A DNA stretch of 64,000 bases from Spiroplasma mirum ATCC 29335 (lineage in GTDB: Bacteria; Bacillota_I; Bacilli_A; Mycoplasmatales; Mycoplasmataceae), in NCBI RefSeq assembly GCF_000565195.1, contig NZ_CP006720.1, positions 124,001 through 188,000 of the forward strand. Reading direction: 5' to 3'. Below, one piece after another: positions 12,030 through 23,191 of this stretch. Position 1 is the stretch's first letter. The number at the start of each line of letters is the position of its first letter. The position numbers and the translations under genes are program-made. The notes under the pieces were generated by a model that was not told where the DNA came from, did no database searches, and worked only from the letters and a program-made list of their open reading frames with translations.

Positions 12030-12182
12030 ATGTGGTTTTTAATTAGGGAATTGTGTTAAAAGCACAAGCTGTACCAGCAACTGTAGAACTGACGAAAGCT
12101 GTAATATGTAATAACCACTGAGAAAATTTCTTGATAAGGGCAGTAAGTAAGATGAAGTAAAGCCAGTAGACCTACAATGTTT
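12030..12182 (+). promoter_or_regulatory. Cobalamin (adenosylcobalamin) riboswitch
   Basis: The conserved cobalamin-aptamer blocks occur in order and at normal spacing: AGGGAA (12045), a TTGTG/CACAA stem, CTGTACCAGCAACTGT (12069-12084, consensus CTGTCCCGCAACTGT), AACCACTG (12113-12120, consensus GCCACTG) and AGCCAGTAGACCTAC (12161-12175, matching the AGxCxGGAGACCxGCC box). A TATAAT hexamer at 11975-11980 may be its -10. The downstream genes are nrdD and nrdG, the B12-independent anaerobic ribonucleotide reductase, a known type of target in organisms that also own a B12-dependent reductase. In that arrangement adenosylcobalamin turns the downstream genes off. Confidence 0.85.
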
Positions 12183-12367: not shown

Positions 12368-14481
12368 ATGAAATTAAATGATAAAAAGTTTTTATATAAT
12401 AAATAAACTGATGGGGGATCTACTTCAACAATAAGTAGTATTAGTTAGTAACTCGTTTGCTATTTTTACTAAAGAAAATCCTTTAAATTCATATAATAAT
12501 GATTTATTAAAAAGAAGAAATGATGAAAATTGTTAATGTTGAAAAAAATGATTCAACTTATGAAAATGATAATATGTCAGCAGATACACCAGCCGGTCAA
12601 ATGATGAATATGGCTGCAACAGCTGCCAAAGAATATGCTTTACGCTTTTTATTAAGTAAAGAATATCGTGATGCTCATCAAAATGAGGATATTCATATTC
12701 ATGATTTAGATTATTATCCATCAAAAACCACAACTTGTGTGCAATATGATTTAAAAGATATTTTTTGCTAATGGTTTTTGAACAAAAAATGGAATGGTCC
12801 GCGAACCACAAACTATTTAGTCGTATGCGACACTATCAGCAATTGTTTTTCAATCACACCAAAATAAACAACATGGTAGTCAAGAAATTCCGGCTTTTGA
12901 TTATTTTTTAGCTCTTGGTGTTTTAAAATCATTTCGTAAAAATTTAGTTAAACAATTAGAATTTATTTTAAAATTAAATAATTTAGAAAATTAAAAAAAT
13001 TGACAAGCACTAATCCAAGAAAAATTTAATACTATTGATTTACATCTTAACGAAGAAGTACAACTTGAAATTAGTAAATTATTAGATTTAAATATAAACC
13101 AAGTTAAAATTGCATTTTAGGAAGCATATCTTACAACAGAAAAAGAAACTTTTCAAGCAATGGAAGGATTTATTTATAATTTAAACACAATGCATTTCAT
13201 GAGGAAAAACCAAGTTGTTTTTTTTCATCAATAAATTATGGAACCGATACTTCTTCCGAAGGAAGAATGATGATTCGCCAAGTATTATTAGCAACTCAAA
13301 AAGGACTTGGAAAAAATAAAACACCAATTTCCCAATTTAAATTTTTAAAGTTAAGGAAGGAATCTTTTACTCTGAAGAAGATTTTAATTTAGCAATTAAT
13401 AATTGAAAACAAGCTAAACAGGAAATGCTAAATTATAAAACTAAAAACTTTGATTTATTAATTCTTGCTTGTCAAACAAATTCAACCCGATTATTTCCTA
13501 ACTTTGTTTTTTAGATACACCATTTAATAAGCACGAAAATTGAAATCCTGCTGATCCAAATAATTATTTAAATGAAGTTGCCACGATGGGTTGTCGCACA
13601 AGAACATTTGAAAATATTAATGGGTATAAAACACCAGTTGGTCGTGGTAATATTTCTTTTACCGCTATGAACTTATCTCGTTTAGCCATTGAAGCGGTAA
13701 AAGAAGTTAAAGAAGAAAATTTATCATATGATGATTTTTTAAAAAAAGTAAGTGCCTCATTGTATGAAAACATCATAAGGACATATCAAAAGATGAATAT
13801 CTGGTAAATATGATTAACCAGGGTAGTTTAACAATTGGTTTTATTGGTGGACACAATGCCATGAAAATGATTTTTGGGGAAGGCCATAGTGAATTAGAAG
13901 CAGCATATGATTTGTTATACCAAGCAGTATTAACAATGAACGAGATTGCTAATCAATATAAACAAAAATATAAATTTAAACTATTCAGTTATTGCCACTC
14001 CGGCCGAAGGATTACCTGGGCGTTTTACTAGAATGGATGTTAAAAAATACGAAATTATTTCTGGTGTTAATGATAGTAATTATTATATTAATTCATTCCA
14101 TGTTGATGTTAAACAAAATATTAGTATTTTTGAAAAAATAAAAAAGAAGTACCATTCCACGCAATTACATTAGATGGACATATTAGTTATGTTGAATTGG
14201 ATGGAGCTATGAAATATAAAATTCCTGTTATTTTAAAAATACTTAAATGTATCTTTGATAATAATATTGGTTATGGATCAATTAATCACCCCGTTGATGT
14301 TTGTTTAGAATGTCAATTTTCAGGAATTATTCCTCAGGCATATGATAAATGTCAAAGCAATAATATCCGTCGCATTCGTCAAATTACTGGTTATTTAACT
14401 GGTGATTTAAATAGTTGAAATTCAGCGAAAAGATCAGAAGAACATGATCGGGTTAAACATGGAATTAACGAAAATAAATAA
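12368..14481 (+). pseudogene. nrdD: Anaerobic (class III) ribonucleoside-triphosphate reductase NrdD, heavily decayed
   Basis: Family blocks occur in order across shifting frames: NDNMSADTPAGQMM (12570), HIHDLDYYPSKTTTCVQYDL (12690), a QEIPAFDYFLALG segment (12880), SSINYGTDTSSEGRMM (13230), YMGCRTRT-like block (13590), PVGRGNISFTAMNL (13640), GFIGGHNAMK (13845), TPAEGLPGRFTRMD (13997) and [12 protein letters not shown] (14380), which carries the glycyl-radical site near the C-terminus. The zinc site is partly lost: CLEC is kept but the second pair reads CQSN. At least eight shifts plus TAA/TAG stops break the frame. The intact enzyme reduces NTPs without oxygen; this one cannot. Confidence 0.88.
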
Positions 14482-15058
14482 CTTTAACATTAAAGTTTTA
14501 AAAATTTATCCTGAAACAACTAGTGATGGCCTTGGGTTATGTTATAGTATTTATTTAGTAGCGGGTTGCCGGCATGCTTGTTTTGGTTGCCACAATGTCA
14601 GAAGTTGAAATCATAATAATGGCCAACTTCTAGATGATAAATATCTTGCTGAAATTATTGACCAAATTAATGCTAATTCGTTATTGGAGGGTGTTACGTT
14701 ATCGGGAGAGGTGATCCGTTTTTATGACTCCCTATTTTTAAGACAATTGTTAGAATATTTTAAAAAATATACTAACAAAAATATTTGATGTTATACAGGC
14801 TATACGTATGAACAAATTATAAACAAACCAGAGTTAAATGCGTGTTTAAAATATATTGATGTCTTAATTGATGCGTGGTTCGTTTTAGAATTAAGAGATA
14901 TTTTACTTCCTTTTAAAGATAGCAGTAACCAGCGAACAATTTATTTAAAAAATTGTAAACTTGATTTTATTGATAATTATTTGGAAATTATTAAATCAAG
15001 TATTTTTATTTTTAAAGGAATTCTTTTTTTATTAGTTAAATTATTTATGAGAAATTAA
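14459..15058 (+). CDS. nrdG: Anaerobic ribonucleotide reductase activase NrdG, motif-damaged
   Basis: A radical-SAM activase that would install the glycyl radical on NrdD. The 199-codon frame is open from an ATG inside the nrdD end. The cluster motif [11 protein letters not shown] near residue 40 keeps the C-x3-C-x2-C ligands, and [11 protein letters not shown] and [11 protein letters not shown] are normal family blocks. The SAM-contacting SGGDPFY motif is replaced by SGEVIRFY: the bases carry two extra (GA) before and one extra T after, so the frame recovers but the motif is lost. I infer that the protein is inactive, consistent with its dead partner; the open frame alone would hide this. 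Confidence 0.8.
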
Positions 15059-18242: not shown

Positions 18243-20051
18243 ATGAAAAGAAATGAAGCACCAGCCCAGTATAAATGAGATTTTACAAATTTATACCCCA
18301 CAATTGATGATTGAAAAAAAGATTTAAATATTATTGTTGAAAAGTTAAAAGAAATTATAGCATTTAAAGGAAAATTAAATAATAAAGATATTTTTAAAAA
18401 ATATTTACAGTTAGATGATGAAATTGATTTAATTGTTAGTAAATTAGGGCAGTATTTACATATGGGTGATATTGATACAACTAATTTAGTTTATCAAGAA
18501 TTATCAGGAATCTTTGCCAATACTATTAATGAACTTTCAAGTCAATTAGCTTTTATTTCTCCCGAATTAAAAGCAATTGGTGAACAAATTATTATGGGAT
18601 GAATTAAATCAGATTCTGAGTTACAGAAATACGAATATGGATATCGGAAATTCTTCCGCGAAGCGCAACATATATTATCTGAACGAGACGAAGAAATTTT
18701 ATCATTAGTATCACGAAGTCGTGGAGCAGCTTATGATATTTATGATTTATTAGCATATGCTGATAAAAAACCAGCTTATGTAAATTATCAAGGCAAAGAA
18801 CAAAAATTAACTCAAGCCTTATATAGTGAAATTACTGAAGAGACTGACCCACTGGATGATCAAAAATTAAGAGCAGAAACAGCAAAATTATTTGTGCAAC
18901 ATTTAACAGATAAAAAACATTCCTTTGCGAGAGTTTATGAAGCAATTTTACAAAGAAGTGTCGAATCAGTAAAGTTAAGAGGCTATAAAAATACTTTGCA
19001 AGCATCATTATCAGGTGATGATGTTACCGAAGACATTTATGAAAGTTTAATTAAGTATGGTCGTCAAACAAGTCATTTAAATGTTCGCTATAATGAAATT
19101 TTGAAAAAATATTTTAAATTTAATAAATATTATGCATCAGACAGCCGCTTAAAATTAGTAAAAAATGTGCCCAGTGTTAATAAAAAATATTCAGTTGAAG
19201 AAGCAAAAAACATTATTCGTGAATCATTAAAAATGTTAGGACCAGAATATTTGAGCCAACTAGAGATTGCGTGAAGTGATAATCGAATTGATTATTTTGA
19301 AGATACTAATAAAAGAGCCGGCGCATATTCATCAGGAGGGAATGGTGTTGAACCAATTATTTTGATGAACTGAGATAATACAATCTCATCGGTTAATACA
19401 TTAGCCCACGAAGCTGGTCACTCCGTGCACACCTTACTAGCAGATGCAAATAATCCCCGCCCATTATCAAACTATCCAATTATTTTAGCGGAAGTAGCTT
19501 CAACTGTTAATGAACACTTATTATTTGATTATTTATATAAAAATGCTCAAAGTGATGATGAAAAAATTTATTTATTACAAAATCGCATTGAAGAAATTAC
19601 TGGAACTTTCTTCCGACAAATTCAATTTGCTGATTTTGAATGAACTGCTCATAAAATGGTTGAAAATAATAAACCCCTAGATGCTGATAAGTTGGCAGAT
19701 TTATTTGAAAAAATTAGTAATGATTTTGGAAGTTCAGTCTTTGATAAATATGAAGAAAATTCAAAACAGTATGGGTGAACAAGAATTTTACATTTCTTTA
19801 ATTCACCATATTATGTTTATAAATATGCAACATGTATTGTTGCCTCATTCAAACTATATAATGATGTTTTAAATAATAACCCTGAGACATTAATTAACTT
19901 CTTAAAACAGGGGGGACGCAAAGAACCATTATTAATTTTAAAAGATATTGGAATTGATTACACTAATGAAAAAGTTTATGATGGTTTAATTAATAAATTA
20001 ACTTCCTTAATTGACAACTTAGAAGCACTATTAAATAAAAAAGGAAATTAA
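18243..20051 (+). CDS. pepF: Oligoendopeptidase F (M3 family)
   Basis: Cytosolic zinc oligopeptidase, 602 residues, full length for the family. The zinc motif HEAGH is at residues 389-393 and the downstream segment FRQIQFADFEW is typical of PepF. Internal TGA codons are Trp. AAAGGAGAAG precedes ATG 18243, and TATAAT at 18192-18197 may be its -10. The gene converges on the cobalamin adenosyltransferase gene, and the two stop codons overlap by four bases without room for a terminator hairpin. With pepA next door it supplies amino acids from imported peptides. Confidence 0.93.
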
Positions 20052-20587
20052 AATTCAATTCCTTTACGCGCAGGGATCTTTTCATAAAAGTAGTGTTTAA
20101 TTAATTTAACATTACTTACTAGATCAACATTATCAATTAAGTTTTGGGTAATATGATGTCCGGAAAAAGCCAATTCAATATTTGGCTTTTTTGTTTTAAT
20201 AACAGCAATTAATTCTTCTTCAGTTATTAAACCATTAACAATGCATCCTAATAATTCATCAACAATAATTAAATCCACATTATCACTCTGAACTAATTTT
20301 TGTAAAATAGCAAACCCACCTCGCATCTCTTCTTTTAAGATTGCTTTTTCTTGGTCATTCATTTCCCAAAAGAATTTTTGACTAGAAGAATAAAAATCAT
20401 AAATTTCTAAGCGGGGATGATTAATTTGTTCAAAAAACAACATTTCTCCTGATTGACGATTTTTTAAAAATCGTAAATATTTAATATTTCAACCATAACC
20501 AAGCGCTCGAATTGTCATTCCGTTCAAAATTGAAGTTTTTCCTTTACCATCACCGTAATATATATGAGTATAACCTTTTTTCTGCAT
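20048..20587 (-). CDS. cobO: ATP:cob(I)alamin adenosyltransferase (CobA/CobO/BtuR type)
   Basis: Transfers the adenosyl group of ATP to cob(I)alamin, making adenosylcobalamin. The 179-residue protein has the P-loop GDGKGKTS at residues 12-19, DLIIVDELLGCIVNG as the Walker-B-like strand, and the family's C-terminal signature ARKGIEF. The frame is intact with one TGA Trp. AAGGTGG precedes the ATG, and TATAAT (20620-20615 on the minus strand) may be the -10. Together with the cobalamin riboswitch 8 kb away it argues for an adenosylcobalamin-dependent enzyme elsewhere in this genome, for example a class II reductase. No cobalamin synthesis gene is seen in the window. Confidence 0.9.
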
Positions 20588-20628
20588 TTTACTGAACCAC
20601 CTTTTCTTAGTTATATTATAGAACAAAA

Positions 20629-20651
20629 AAATAATCCTCCTCGGATTATTT
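20629..20651 (-). terminator. Terminator downstream of the YitT relic
   Basis: On the minus strand AAATAATCC/GGATTATTT with a 5-base loop runs into a T tract; it lies at the end of the YitT frame and just upstream of the cobO promoter. Confidence 0.7.
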
Positions 20652-22045
20652 AATATTTTATTTTTTTGGGCATTTGATAAGTTTTATAAGTTGTTTGGGC
20701 GCGGATAATAGCATCAGGATCAGCTAATAAGATAGTTTCCCGCACTCGTTTAAAACTAATTAACGAAATAGTAATCATTACAATGTAATTATTATCTGAA
20801 AATTCGTTATTAAGATTTTTAGAAACTTTTTAGATGGTATTATTACGATAACCATTTTCTCGTAAACGGTCAATAATCACTTGGGGGTTGCTTGTAATTA
20901 CCATCAAAGTTGTGTTGCAATATTTTGGGAAAATTTTATTTGACACAATACCACAGACAATAATAACCATAAAGGCCGCAAAGAATGTAGCTGAGAAATA
21001 GAAGGTAATAAAATCAGGGTTAGGAGTTGGTGGTTTAAAAGCATAACTCATTGCCCATGTTATTAACATTACCAAGGTATTAACTAGGATTGAAACATTC
21101 CCAACTGGTTTTTCTTTGTTCTTGAAATATAGTTATTTACAAAGTCTGTACCTCCTGGACAGGCATCACCAATGTATAAGAAATCATAACCAATTCCATT
21201 TAAGATCGCTCCAATTAATCCAAAGAAGAAAATTTATAAATCACGAACACTAGACTTATCAATATCATTTAGATTTTGTAAAAAATGGAAGTCTGTTGAA
21301 TTGATAACAGGGATTCCATGATAATCCCCAATTCCCGTTAATAATAATATGGAAAGCCGTTTGACAAACCATAAAAATTAATGTATTTATGATAAATCTC
21401 CGACCAACAATTATTGAACTAAAAATAATTAAAGGGATATTATTAACAATGTAAAAAACATAATACATTAAGTTAGCATTATTAATATTTGAATCATTTA
21501 ATGGAGGGAAAATATATTGGACAAAGATTTTCCCGACCGCTCCCAACCCCGGTGGAAGAACTTTTGAAGGAGTTAAGAAATAATCAAAAGCAATCGTACA
21601 AATTAAACTAGCTAAAACAAAATAGATATAAACTTTATTTTGAGTTTTTTTAAGATAGTTTTTTTGCTTTGAGTAATAATTAATCTTTTTTTATTTGTTC
21701 TTCATTATATTCGCTCCAAAGAGTACTGATTTTTTCTTTAACATCTAATTTATTTTCAAGTTCAACAAGTTGTTTTTCATAAGCAACTATTTTATTAACA
21801 AATTTATTAATAATTTGTTTTTTTGTAGTCAAATTGTTCTAATTTTAATTTTAGTTTAATTTTTTTGACTGATCATGGTTCTTACTTAATTTTAATAATT
21901 TTTGCTCTAGTTGATTTTTATATTCGCTGGTTTCATTAATATATTATTTCATCATTTGTTCTGTTTACCGAATATTTTTCTTAATATTTTCGTAGAGCTC
22001 TTCATCTACTAACTTTTGCTTTTTCGTTTCTTTCAATTTAATCAC
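20650..22045 (-). pseudogene. YitT-family membrane protein with coiled-coil N-terminus, decayed
   Basis: Reading the minus strand from a GTG at 22045, a charged, coiled-coil-like extension of about 120 residues leads into KTQNKVYIYFVLASLICTIA and PGLGAVGKIFVQYIF, then the membrane blocks NNIPLIIFSSIIVGRRF and GDACPGGTDFVNNYISR (the family's G-G-T-D motif), and a C-terminal cytosolic domain with ITSNPQVIIDRLRENGY. The frame shifts near 21300 and 21110, and the extension has further breaks near 21840. In-frame TAA codons occur at several places, including before the last 60 codons. YitT proteins are poorly understood multipass proteins. The lesions make this copy dead. Confidence 0.65.
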
Positions 22046-22198
22046 ACTCACTCTTTTATTAATACAATAACAAGGTTATTATATTCCTTTTTATTATTTT
22101 TGTTCTTAAAAATTTTCATAATTTATTAATATTTATCTAAAAAAATGTTTTAATTAAAAAGAGTATAGATAAAAAAAGATAGTAAGGATTGAAAAAAC

Positions 22199-23191
22199 AT
22201 GAAAACCAATAGTTTACTTTTTTTAAGAGCAGTTGAATTAGCAGTGATTGCTTCTTATGAATTAGTTGGAAAGCAAGATAAAAATAATCTGGATAAGAAG
22301 GCCGTCGATATTATTAATTTATTATTAACTAACCATAATGCCAAAGCTAAAATTGCTATTGGGGAAGGCGAGTTAGACGAAGCACCAATGCTTTATCAAG
22401 GGCAAACTTTTACTAATAACCATCCGATTACAATTGATATTGCAGTTGATCCCATTGAAGGAACTTCTCCCGCTAGTAAAAATGAAGAGGGCTCAATTTC
22501 TTGTATTGCTATCGCTAAAAACGATTCAATGTTACAAATTCCGGAAATGTATATGGAAAAATTATTTATTGCCAAAAAAGATGAGGGGAATATTGATTTT
22601 ACAAAAGATATTAAGTGAAATTTAGATAATTTATTAAAAATTAAGAAAACTTTAAAAGTTATTATTTTAGATAAGCCTCGCCATCAAGAAATTATTCAAT
22701 ATATGGAAGCAAATAAAATAGAAGTTATTCGTATTAAAGAAGGGGACGTCTTAGGAGCCATTGATGTTGTTTTAGGGCGCGCAGATTTATTATATGGGAT
22801 TGGTGGTGCGCCCGAGGGAATCTTAATGGCTTCTTTGGCAATTGCTACTAATCATATTATGTTTAATCGGTTAGTACCATATCAACAAATTTGACCATCT
22901 GAGAAGGAAACTGCTGAAAGAATGAAAATTGAAGCGAAGGGTATGCAACTAAAAAAATTAAATTATGACTTAATTTTACGAGAAAATGATTTAGTTAAAG
23001 ATAATAACACAATGTTCTTTGCAGCTAGTTTAACCGGGGGGTCATTATTAAAACCATTAATAGTTGAAAATAATGAATTTATTGTTAATTCATTTATTGG
23101 GTATAATAATATTTATCATCAGATTGTGTCAAGATATCCAATTGTTAAGGATATTAAATACTTATTAACTGAATATAGTTTTTGCAAATAA
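22199..23191 (+). CDS. glpX: Fructose-1,6-bisphosphatase, class II (GlpX type)
   Basis: Hydrolyses fructose-1,6-bisphosphate in gluconeogenesis. The 330-residue frame is intact with TGA as Trp. GEGELDEAPMLYQG at residue 54 and IDIAVDPIEGTSPAS at residue 82 are the metal- and substrate-binding blocks; the family usually has GEGEID. LLYGIGGAPEGILMA near residue 195 is the other family signature. AAGGATTG precedes the ATG. It stands alone between the YitT relic and a small hypothetical. A sugar-building step is sensible in a cell that also feeds on arginine, but that role is inferred. Confidence 0.92.

Follow-up and report, generated by a model that had tools for sequence, protein, structure and literature searches.

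What consumes the adenosylcobalamin that an intact cob(I)alamin adenosyltransferase of Spiroplasma mirum ATCC 29335 would make? The gene, cobA, lies in the 64,000-nucleotide window analysed here (NZ_CP006720.1, positions 124,001 to 188,000), and an earlier note, made from the letters of that window, had argued that such an enzyme is not useful without a consumer. The S. mirum genome (G000) is a single contig of 1,132,608 bp, and G003 (about 88-95% identical) served as its closest relative. We put a probability of roughly 0.87 on the reading that intact CobA activates imported B12, most likely for a class II ribonucleotide reductase (RNR), NrdJ, that makes DNA precursors.

Integrity and family membership of CobA

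The cobA frame on the minus strand is unbroken under genetic code 4, with one TGA read as tryptophan. At its stop it runs 4 nt into the end of the convergent pepF (Table 1). All three motifs quoted in the earlier note (GDGKGKTS, DELLGCIVNG and ARKGIEF) occur exactly in the unbroken translation. A whole-genome search returned only this one copy, and an Rfam scan found no riboswitch upstream of it.

Table 1. Coordinates of the features discussed; positions are those of the window unless a genome or locus is named.
Feature	Position	Strand	Description
Cobalamin riboswitch aptamer (RF00174)	12045..12173	+	51.1 bits, model 45-169; leader of the decayed nrdDG
nrdD (class III RNR), pseudogene	12369..14468	+	9-10 frameshifting indels and 5 nonsense codons relative to the intact 740-aa G003 orthologue
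nrdG (class III RNR activase), pseudogene	14447..14990	+	2 frameshifts relative to the intact 171-aa G003 orthologue
pepF	18243-20051		Convergent to cobA; intact, no indel or nonsense change relative to G003
cobA	20048..20587	-	179 aa, ATG start, intact; predicted CobA/CobO/BtuR-family ATP:corrinoid adenosyltransferase
Shine-Dalgarno-like AAGGTGG	20596..20603	-	About 9 nt upstream of the cobA start codon; direct sequence reading
TATAAT	about 20613-20621	-	Slightly further upstream of cobA than the Shine-Dalgarno-like site; direct sequence reading
Pseudogene of a 467-aa protein	20650-22050	-	5 frameshifts, 5 nonsense codons; G003 copy intact
Flanking gene	22199-23191		Intact, no indel or nonsense change relative to G003
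nrdJ, main ORF	genome 348071-350428		785 aa
lepA	L009:673-2476 (G000:C1)		Split by one +1 homopolymer insertion, no nonsense codon
ribF	L009:10939-11857 (G000:C1)		Split by one +1 homopolymer insertion, no nonsense codon
Riboswitch-deoD-deoxynucleoside kinase loci	L048 (G004), L049 (G012), L050 (G007), L057 (G006), L058 (G002), L062 (G009), L065 (G010), L066 (G005)		Relatives within the genus
Riboswitch-led predicted lipoproteins	L051, L052, L053, L143, L154, L157		Candidate B12 receptors
NrdJ genome without detected CobA	L166 (G014:C1:379000-392000)		CobA-type search only

PF02572 (CobA_CobO_BtuR) covers the protein end to end, residues 3-179 aligning with profile positions 1-172 at 157.1 bits (E 6.6e-46; gathering score, 25.7 bits), which, as judged from the sequence, is a family match far beyond chance. 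The likeness to Salmonella enterica CobA/BtuR (PDB 1G5R, 1G5T, 4HUT) extends to a full-length alignment with 1G5R and 4HUT (E about 1e-12), a homology to solved structures that settles the fold, and to specific residues: when the Salmonella enzyme was aligned with 34 CobAs from Mollicutes, S. mirum CobA kept the equivalents of the P-loop residues G36, G38, K41 and T42 and of R51, F91, W93, D127, E128 and H182, all identical, whereas the W93 position varies in a few distant members. F91 and W93 are important for the four-coordinate cobalt state. Compared with that enzyme, S. mirum CobA is divergent, has no N-terminal extension, and would serve salvage only, presumably for NrdJ. Its score against the equivalog TIGR00708 (cob(I)yrinic acid a,c-diamide adenosyltransferase) is 95 bits, short of the cut-off of 167.75 bits; it is therefore filed in the broad family rather than as that equivalog, with a putative corrinoid specificity.

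Within a syntenic block common to S. mirum and G003, cobA is under purifying selection. The 540-bp codon alignment contains no indel and no nonsense change, and its 8 nonsynonymous and 23 synonymous changes give a dN/dS of 0.078 (nrdJ, 0.033; nrdD, 0.171); 8 nonsynonymous changes among 31 correspond to p about 3e-10 under neutrality, at an assumed neutral share of 0.79. The branch to S. mirum alone holds 4 synonymous and 3 nonsynonymous placeable changes and carries little information by itself. The earlier description of decaying neighbours applies to nrdDG, to the gene at about 20650-22050 and to others, which combine frameshifts with nonsense codons, but not to the two intact flanking genes, pepF and the one beginning at 22199. 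Assembly errors are the apparent source of several single-homopolymer frameshifts, in pepA and, elsewhere, in lepA and ribF. Pyrosequencing is error-prone at homopolymers, and the insertions that split lepA and ribF are of the +1 homopolymer type. For the published S. mirum genome, which was obtained by pyrosequencing, 381 pseudogenes are reported (PMC9666726), and this pattern suggests that part of them are sequencing errors.

Class II reductase, importer and riboswitches in S. mirum

An RNR-barrel search of the whole genome returned NrdE plus a second large RNR at 348 kb. The latter scores 1245.8 bits against NF005991 (cut-off 854) and 556.4 bits against TIGR02504 (cut-off 399.95), whereas NrdE, at 82 and 265 bits, falls below both cut-offs; the search for a class II reductase or other AdoCbl partner proposed in the earlier note thus yielded a class II NrdJ. 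The protein contains the active-site cysteine motifs FNCF, NPCGE and SVCNLA and a C-terminal zinc-finger-like CxxC tail, and it is the only AdoCbl user found in the genome. Two further candidates were discarded: another B12-domain enzyme, on 0 hits in a search confined to the B12-binding domain PF02310 and thereby to part of the AdoCbl enzyme classes (large subunits of diol dehydratase and of ethanolamine ammonia-lyase lie outside it), and a monomeric RTPR-type class II RNR, for which the sole hit was sub-threshold and proved to be the NrdJ already found.

In the S. mirum assembly, an A-run near codon 61 of nrdJ has gained one base (A5 to A6), and this single +1 insertion splits the first ~61 codons from the rest. 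The gene has no nonsense codon and no second indel, and its own branch carries 24 synonymous versus 8 nonsynonymous changes. A pyrosequencing overcall is the likeliest explanation, because lepA and ribF carry a like defect and the published method is pyrosequencing, and we infer a working NrdJ in spite of the split frame; that a real lesion arose very recently is less probable and constitutes the main rival. Programmed -1 frameshifting at the A-run (U UUA AAA AAC) was rejected, as a -1 shift cannot restore the frame and +1 is needed.

Three cobalamin riboswitches (RF00174; 77.7, 71.7 and 51.1 bits, gathering score 31.5) are present in the genome, preceding class Ib nrdFIE, the 5' end of an importer operon and the decayed class III nrdDG. 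The last lies in the window, in line with the earlier note's mention of a cobalamin riboswitch, and the other two lie elsewhere in the genome. The importer S-component matches 6FNP (ECF-CbrT, a B12 transporter) over residues 20-187 (phmmer E 6.8e-7) and is predicted from that similarity to be a CbrT-like ECF B12 S-component (CbrT/CblT). A Pfam search gave no match for this S-component or its small partner proteins; one of the latter, adjoining the importer, resembles a DUF4430 protein, a label that denotes resemblance only.

The aptamer before nrdD is eroded too, with a 7-nt insertion and substitutions relative to its G003 counterpart (81.6 bits). The earlier note had read B12 use despite the loss of nrdDG as a tension. 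This view does not hold: class III is a B12-independent alternative outside the B12 pathway, here with its own cobalamin riboswitch, so nrdDG loss fits B12 use. The living cobalamin pathway that the note proposed gains support from a single genome holding class II NrdJ, a gene for a CbrT-like importer and a class Ib nrdFIE operon under a riboswitch.

Distribution across the genus and order

Of the 14 genomes in the genus, 11 have CobA, which is intact in 9; in the order as a whole it occurs in 49 of 320 genomes and in 17 of 50 genera. The gene had been called unusual for a mollicute, which is true only relative to Mycoplasma and does not apply to spiroplasmas. NrdJ occurs in 39 genomes of the order, 38 of which also have CobA (Fisher 3.6e-38 over 320 genomes, a test that ignores kinship among genomes), and all 15 genera with full-length CobA also contain NrdJ. 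Operons weigh more, because Fisher p-values ignore relatedness: the order nrdJ-cblT-cobA-DUF4430-like-deoD is found in G197 and G199, riboswitch-DUF4430-like-cblT-cobA in G182, and nrdJ-cobA in G200, G080 and G032. Where NrdJ is missing in the genus (six genomes), CobA is absent (G002, G004, G011) or broken (G006, G007) and intact only in G012; G309, G314 and G315 complete the four genomes of the order with full-length CobA and no detected NrdJ. G014 is the sole NrdJ genome of the order in which a CobA-type search detected no CobA (Table 1).

Within the genus, CobA and NrdJ trees show identical branching (G000+G003, G001+G013, G005+G009/G010), indicating that the two genes were inherited together and not recently acquired by S. 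mirum; the deeper tree has weak support and a single distant outgroup. When contigs were scanned with CobA as the sole query, a single Spiroplasma MAG turned up.

In 21 genomes of the order NrdJ was found without any class I small subunit, and within the genus 11 of 14 genomes gave no hit for such a subunit. In eight members of the genus, deoD and a deoxynucleoside kinase follow a cobalamin riboswitch (Table 1), which apparently brings deoxynucleoside salvage under B12 control. Since the class I small subunit was not found in those 11 genomes, salvage would be the alternative to NrdJ there. No prior description was found of the link between riboswitch and deoxynucleoside kinase, of cobalamin or a B12-dependent RNR in Spiroplasma, or of a Mollicute cobalamin riboswitch, in a literature search that excluded most subscription journals. 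Cobalamin riboswitches also precede predicted lipoproteins at six loci; the two tested (L051 and L143) had no Pfam match.

Proposed pathway, alternatives and known systems

In the proposed pathway, cobalamin would enter via the CbrT-like importer and be adenosylated by CobA, and NrdJ, as the client of CobA, would use the adenosylcobalamin to produce deoxyribonucleotides with no oxygen requirement. The coenzyme would double as a signal through the cobalamin riboswitches, which, when it is plentiful, would turn down nrdFIE, the importer and, formerly, nrdDG. With oxygen-poor growth covered by NrdJ plus CobA, class III nrdDG would have become dispensable and decayed in the S. mirum lineage. This scheme draws on direct observations of intact genes, retained residues, genes that occur together, operons that they share in relatives and the position of the riboswitches; it further presumes enzyme activity, B12 uptake and the direction of the riboswitch response. 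We lean, with less assurance, towards a broader view in which spiroplasma adenosylcobalamin is the master signal of DNA-precursor supply: as riboswitches stand ahead of B12-independent routes (nrdFIE, nrdDG and, in eight relatives, deoD with the deoxynucleoside kinase), the cell would run on NrdJ whenever the host supplies B12, and NrdJ loss would strand CobA and the switches.

Alternatively, the pathway may be dying, with a genuine frameshift having just silenced nrdJ, all deoxyribonucleotides coming from class Ib NrdEF and CobA persisting as an intact relic. The A-run insertion, if real, would leave the consumer newly broken or N-terminally truncated; in addition, the genome is heavily decayed by its reported pseudogene count, nrdDG is truly broken, and of the six genus genomes without NrdJ, five have either no CobA or a broken one. 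We nevertheless regard this scenario as unlikely, given that nrdJ remains under strong constraint on its own branch with a single lesion, that the conserved lepA and ribF show like insertions in a pyrosequenced genome, and that the genome has kept cobA together with the importer S-component and the nrdFIE riboswitch.

Less probable again is that CobA serves another corrinoid-dependent enzyme or some other role, NrdJ being incidental. The four genomes with full-length CobA and no detected NrdJ would accommodate it, but no B12-binding domain was found in S. mirum within the limits of the PF02310 search, nrdJ-cobA operons recur in several genera, and the two genes are lost together within the genus. 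That cobA is a lone recent horizontal import we consider scarcely credible: nothing beyond its absence from many Mycoplasma-type genomes speaks for it, whereas CobA occurs across the order, follows the NrdJ tree within the genus and sits in the block shared with G003. The refuting case envisaged in the earlier note, a lone recent import with no AdoCbl partner, is therefore contradicted by the census, the trees and the presence of NrdJ, and activation of imported B12 for NrdJ is the preferred reading.

The coupling of B12 supply to RNR choice has precedents. In Streptomyces, a B12 riboswitch controls the B12-independent class I RNR operon beside class II NrdJ. S. mirum, which also has NrdJ, likewise carries a cobalamin riboswitch before its class I RNR operon, but its switches are placed at class Ib nrdFIE and class III nrdDG and, in relatives, also at deoD plus the deoxynucleoside kinase. 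The Lactobacillus delbrueckii cluster nrdJ-cbrS-cbrT-pduO (PMC5997447) shares B12 import by an ECF S-component, adenosylation and class II RNR use, and its CbrT is homologous to the S. mirum importer. By contrast, the S. mirum adenosyltransferase is CobA-type rather than PduO-type, its genes are scattered (clustered in G197 and G199), and its cobalamin riboswitches precede B12-independent RNRs. The module itself is already known; new are the Mollicute setting, the CobA-type enzyme and, in relatives, the cobalamin riboswitch before deoxynucleoside salvage genes.

A 2009 survey of 17 Mollicutes reported that 88% used neither nickel nor cobalt/B12 and found no cobalt transporter (PMC2667541). Whereas B12 use appeared largely absent there, our results point to B12 salvage linked with a class II RNR as a widespread trait of spiroplasma-like Mollicutes. 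In the 21 NrdJ genomes without a class I small subunit, host B12 would be required for DNA synthesis wherever neither salvage nor class III takes over, a nutritional tie of spiroplasmas to their arthropod hosts that can be tested. Genomes that have lost NrdJ provide a natural experiment on the fate of CobA, importer and riboswitches after loss of their only consumer.
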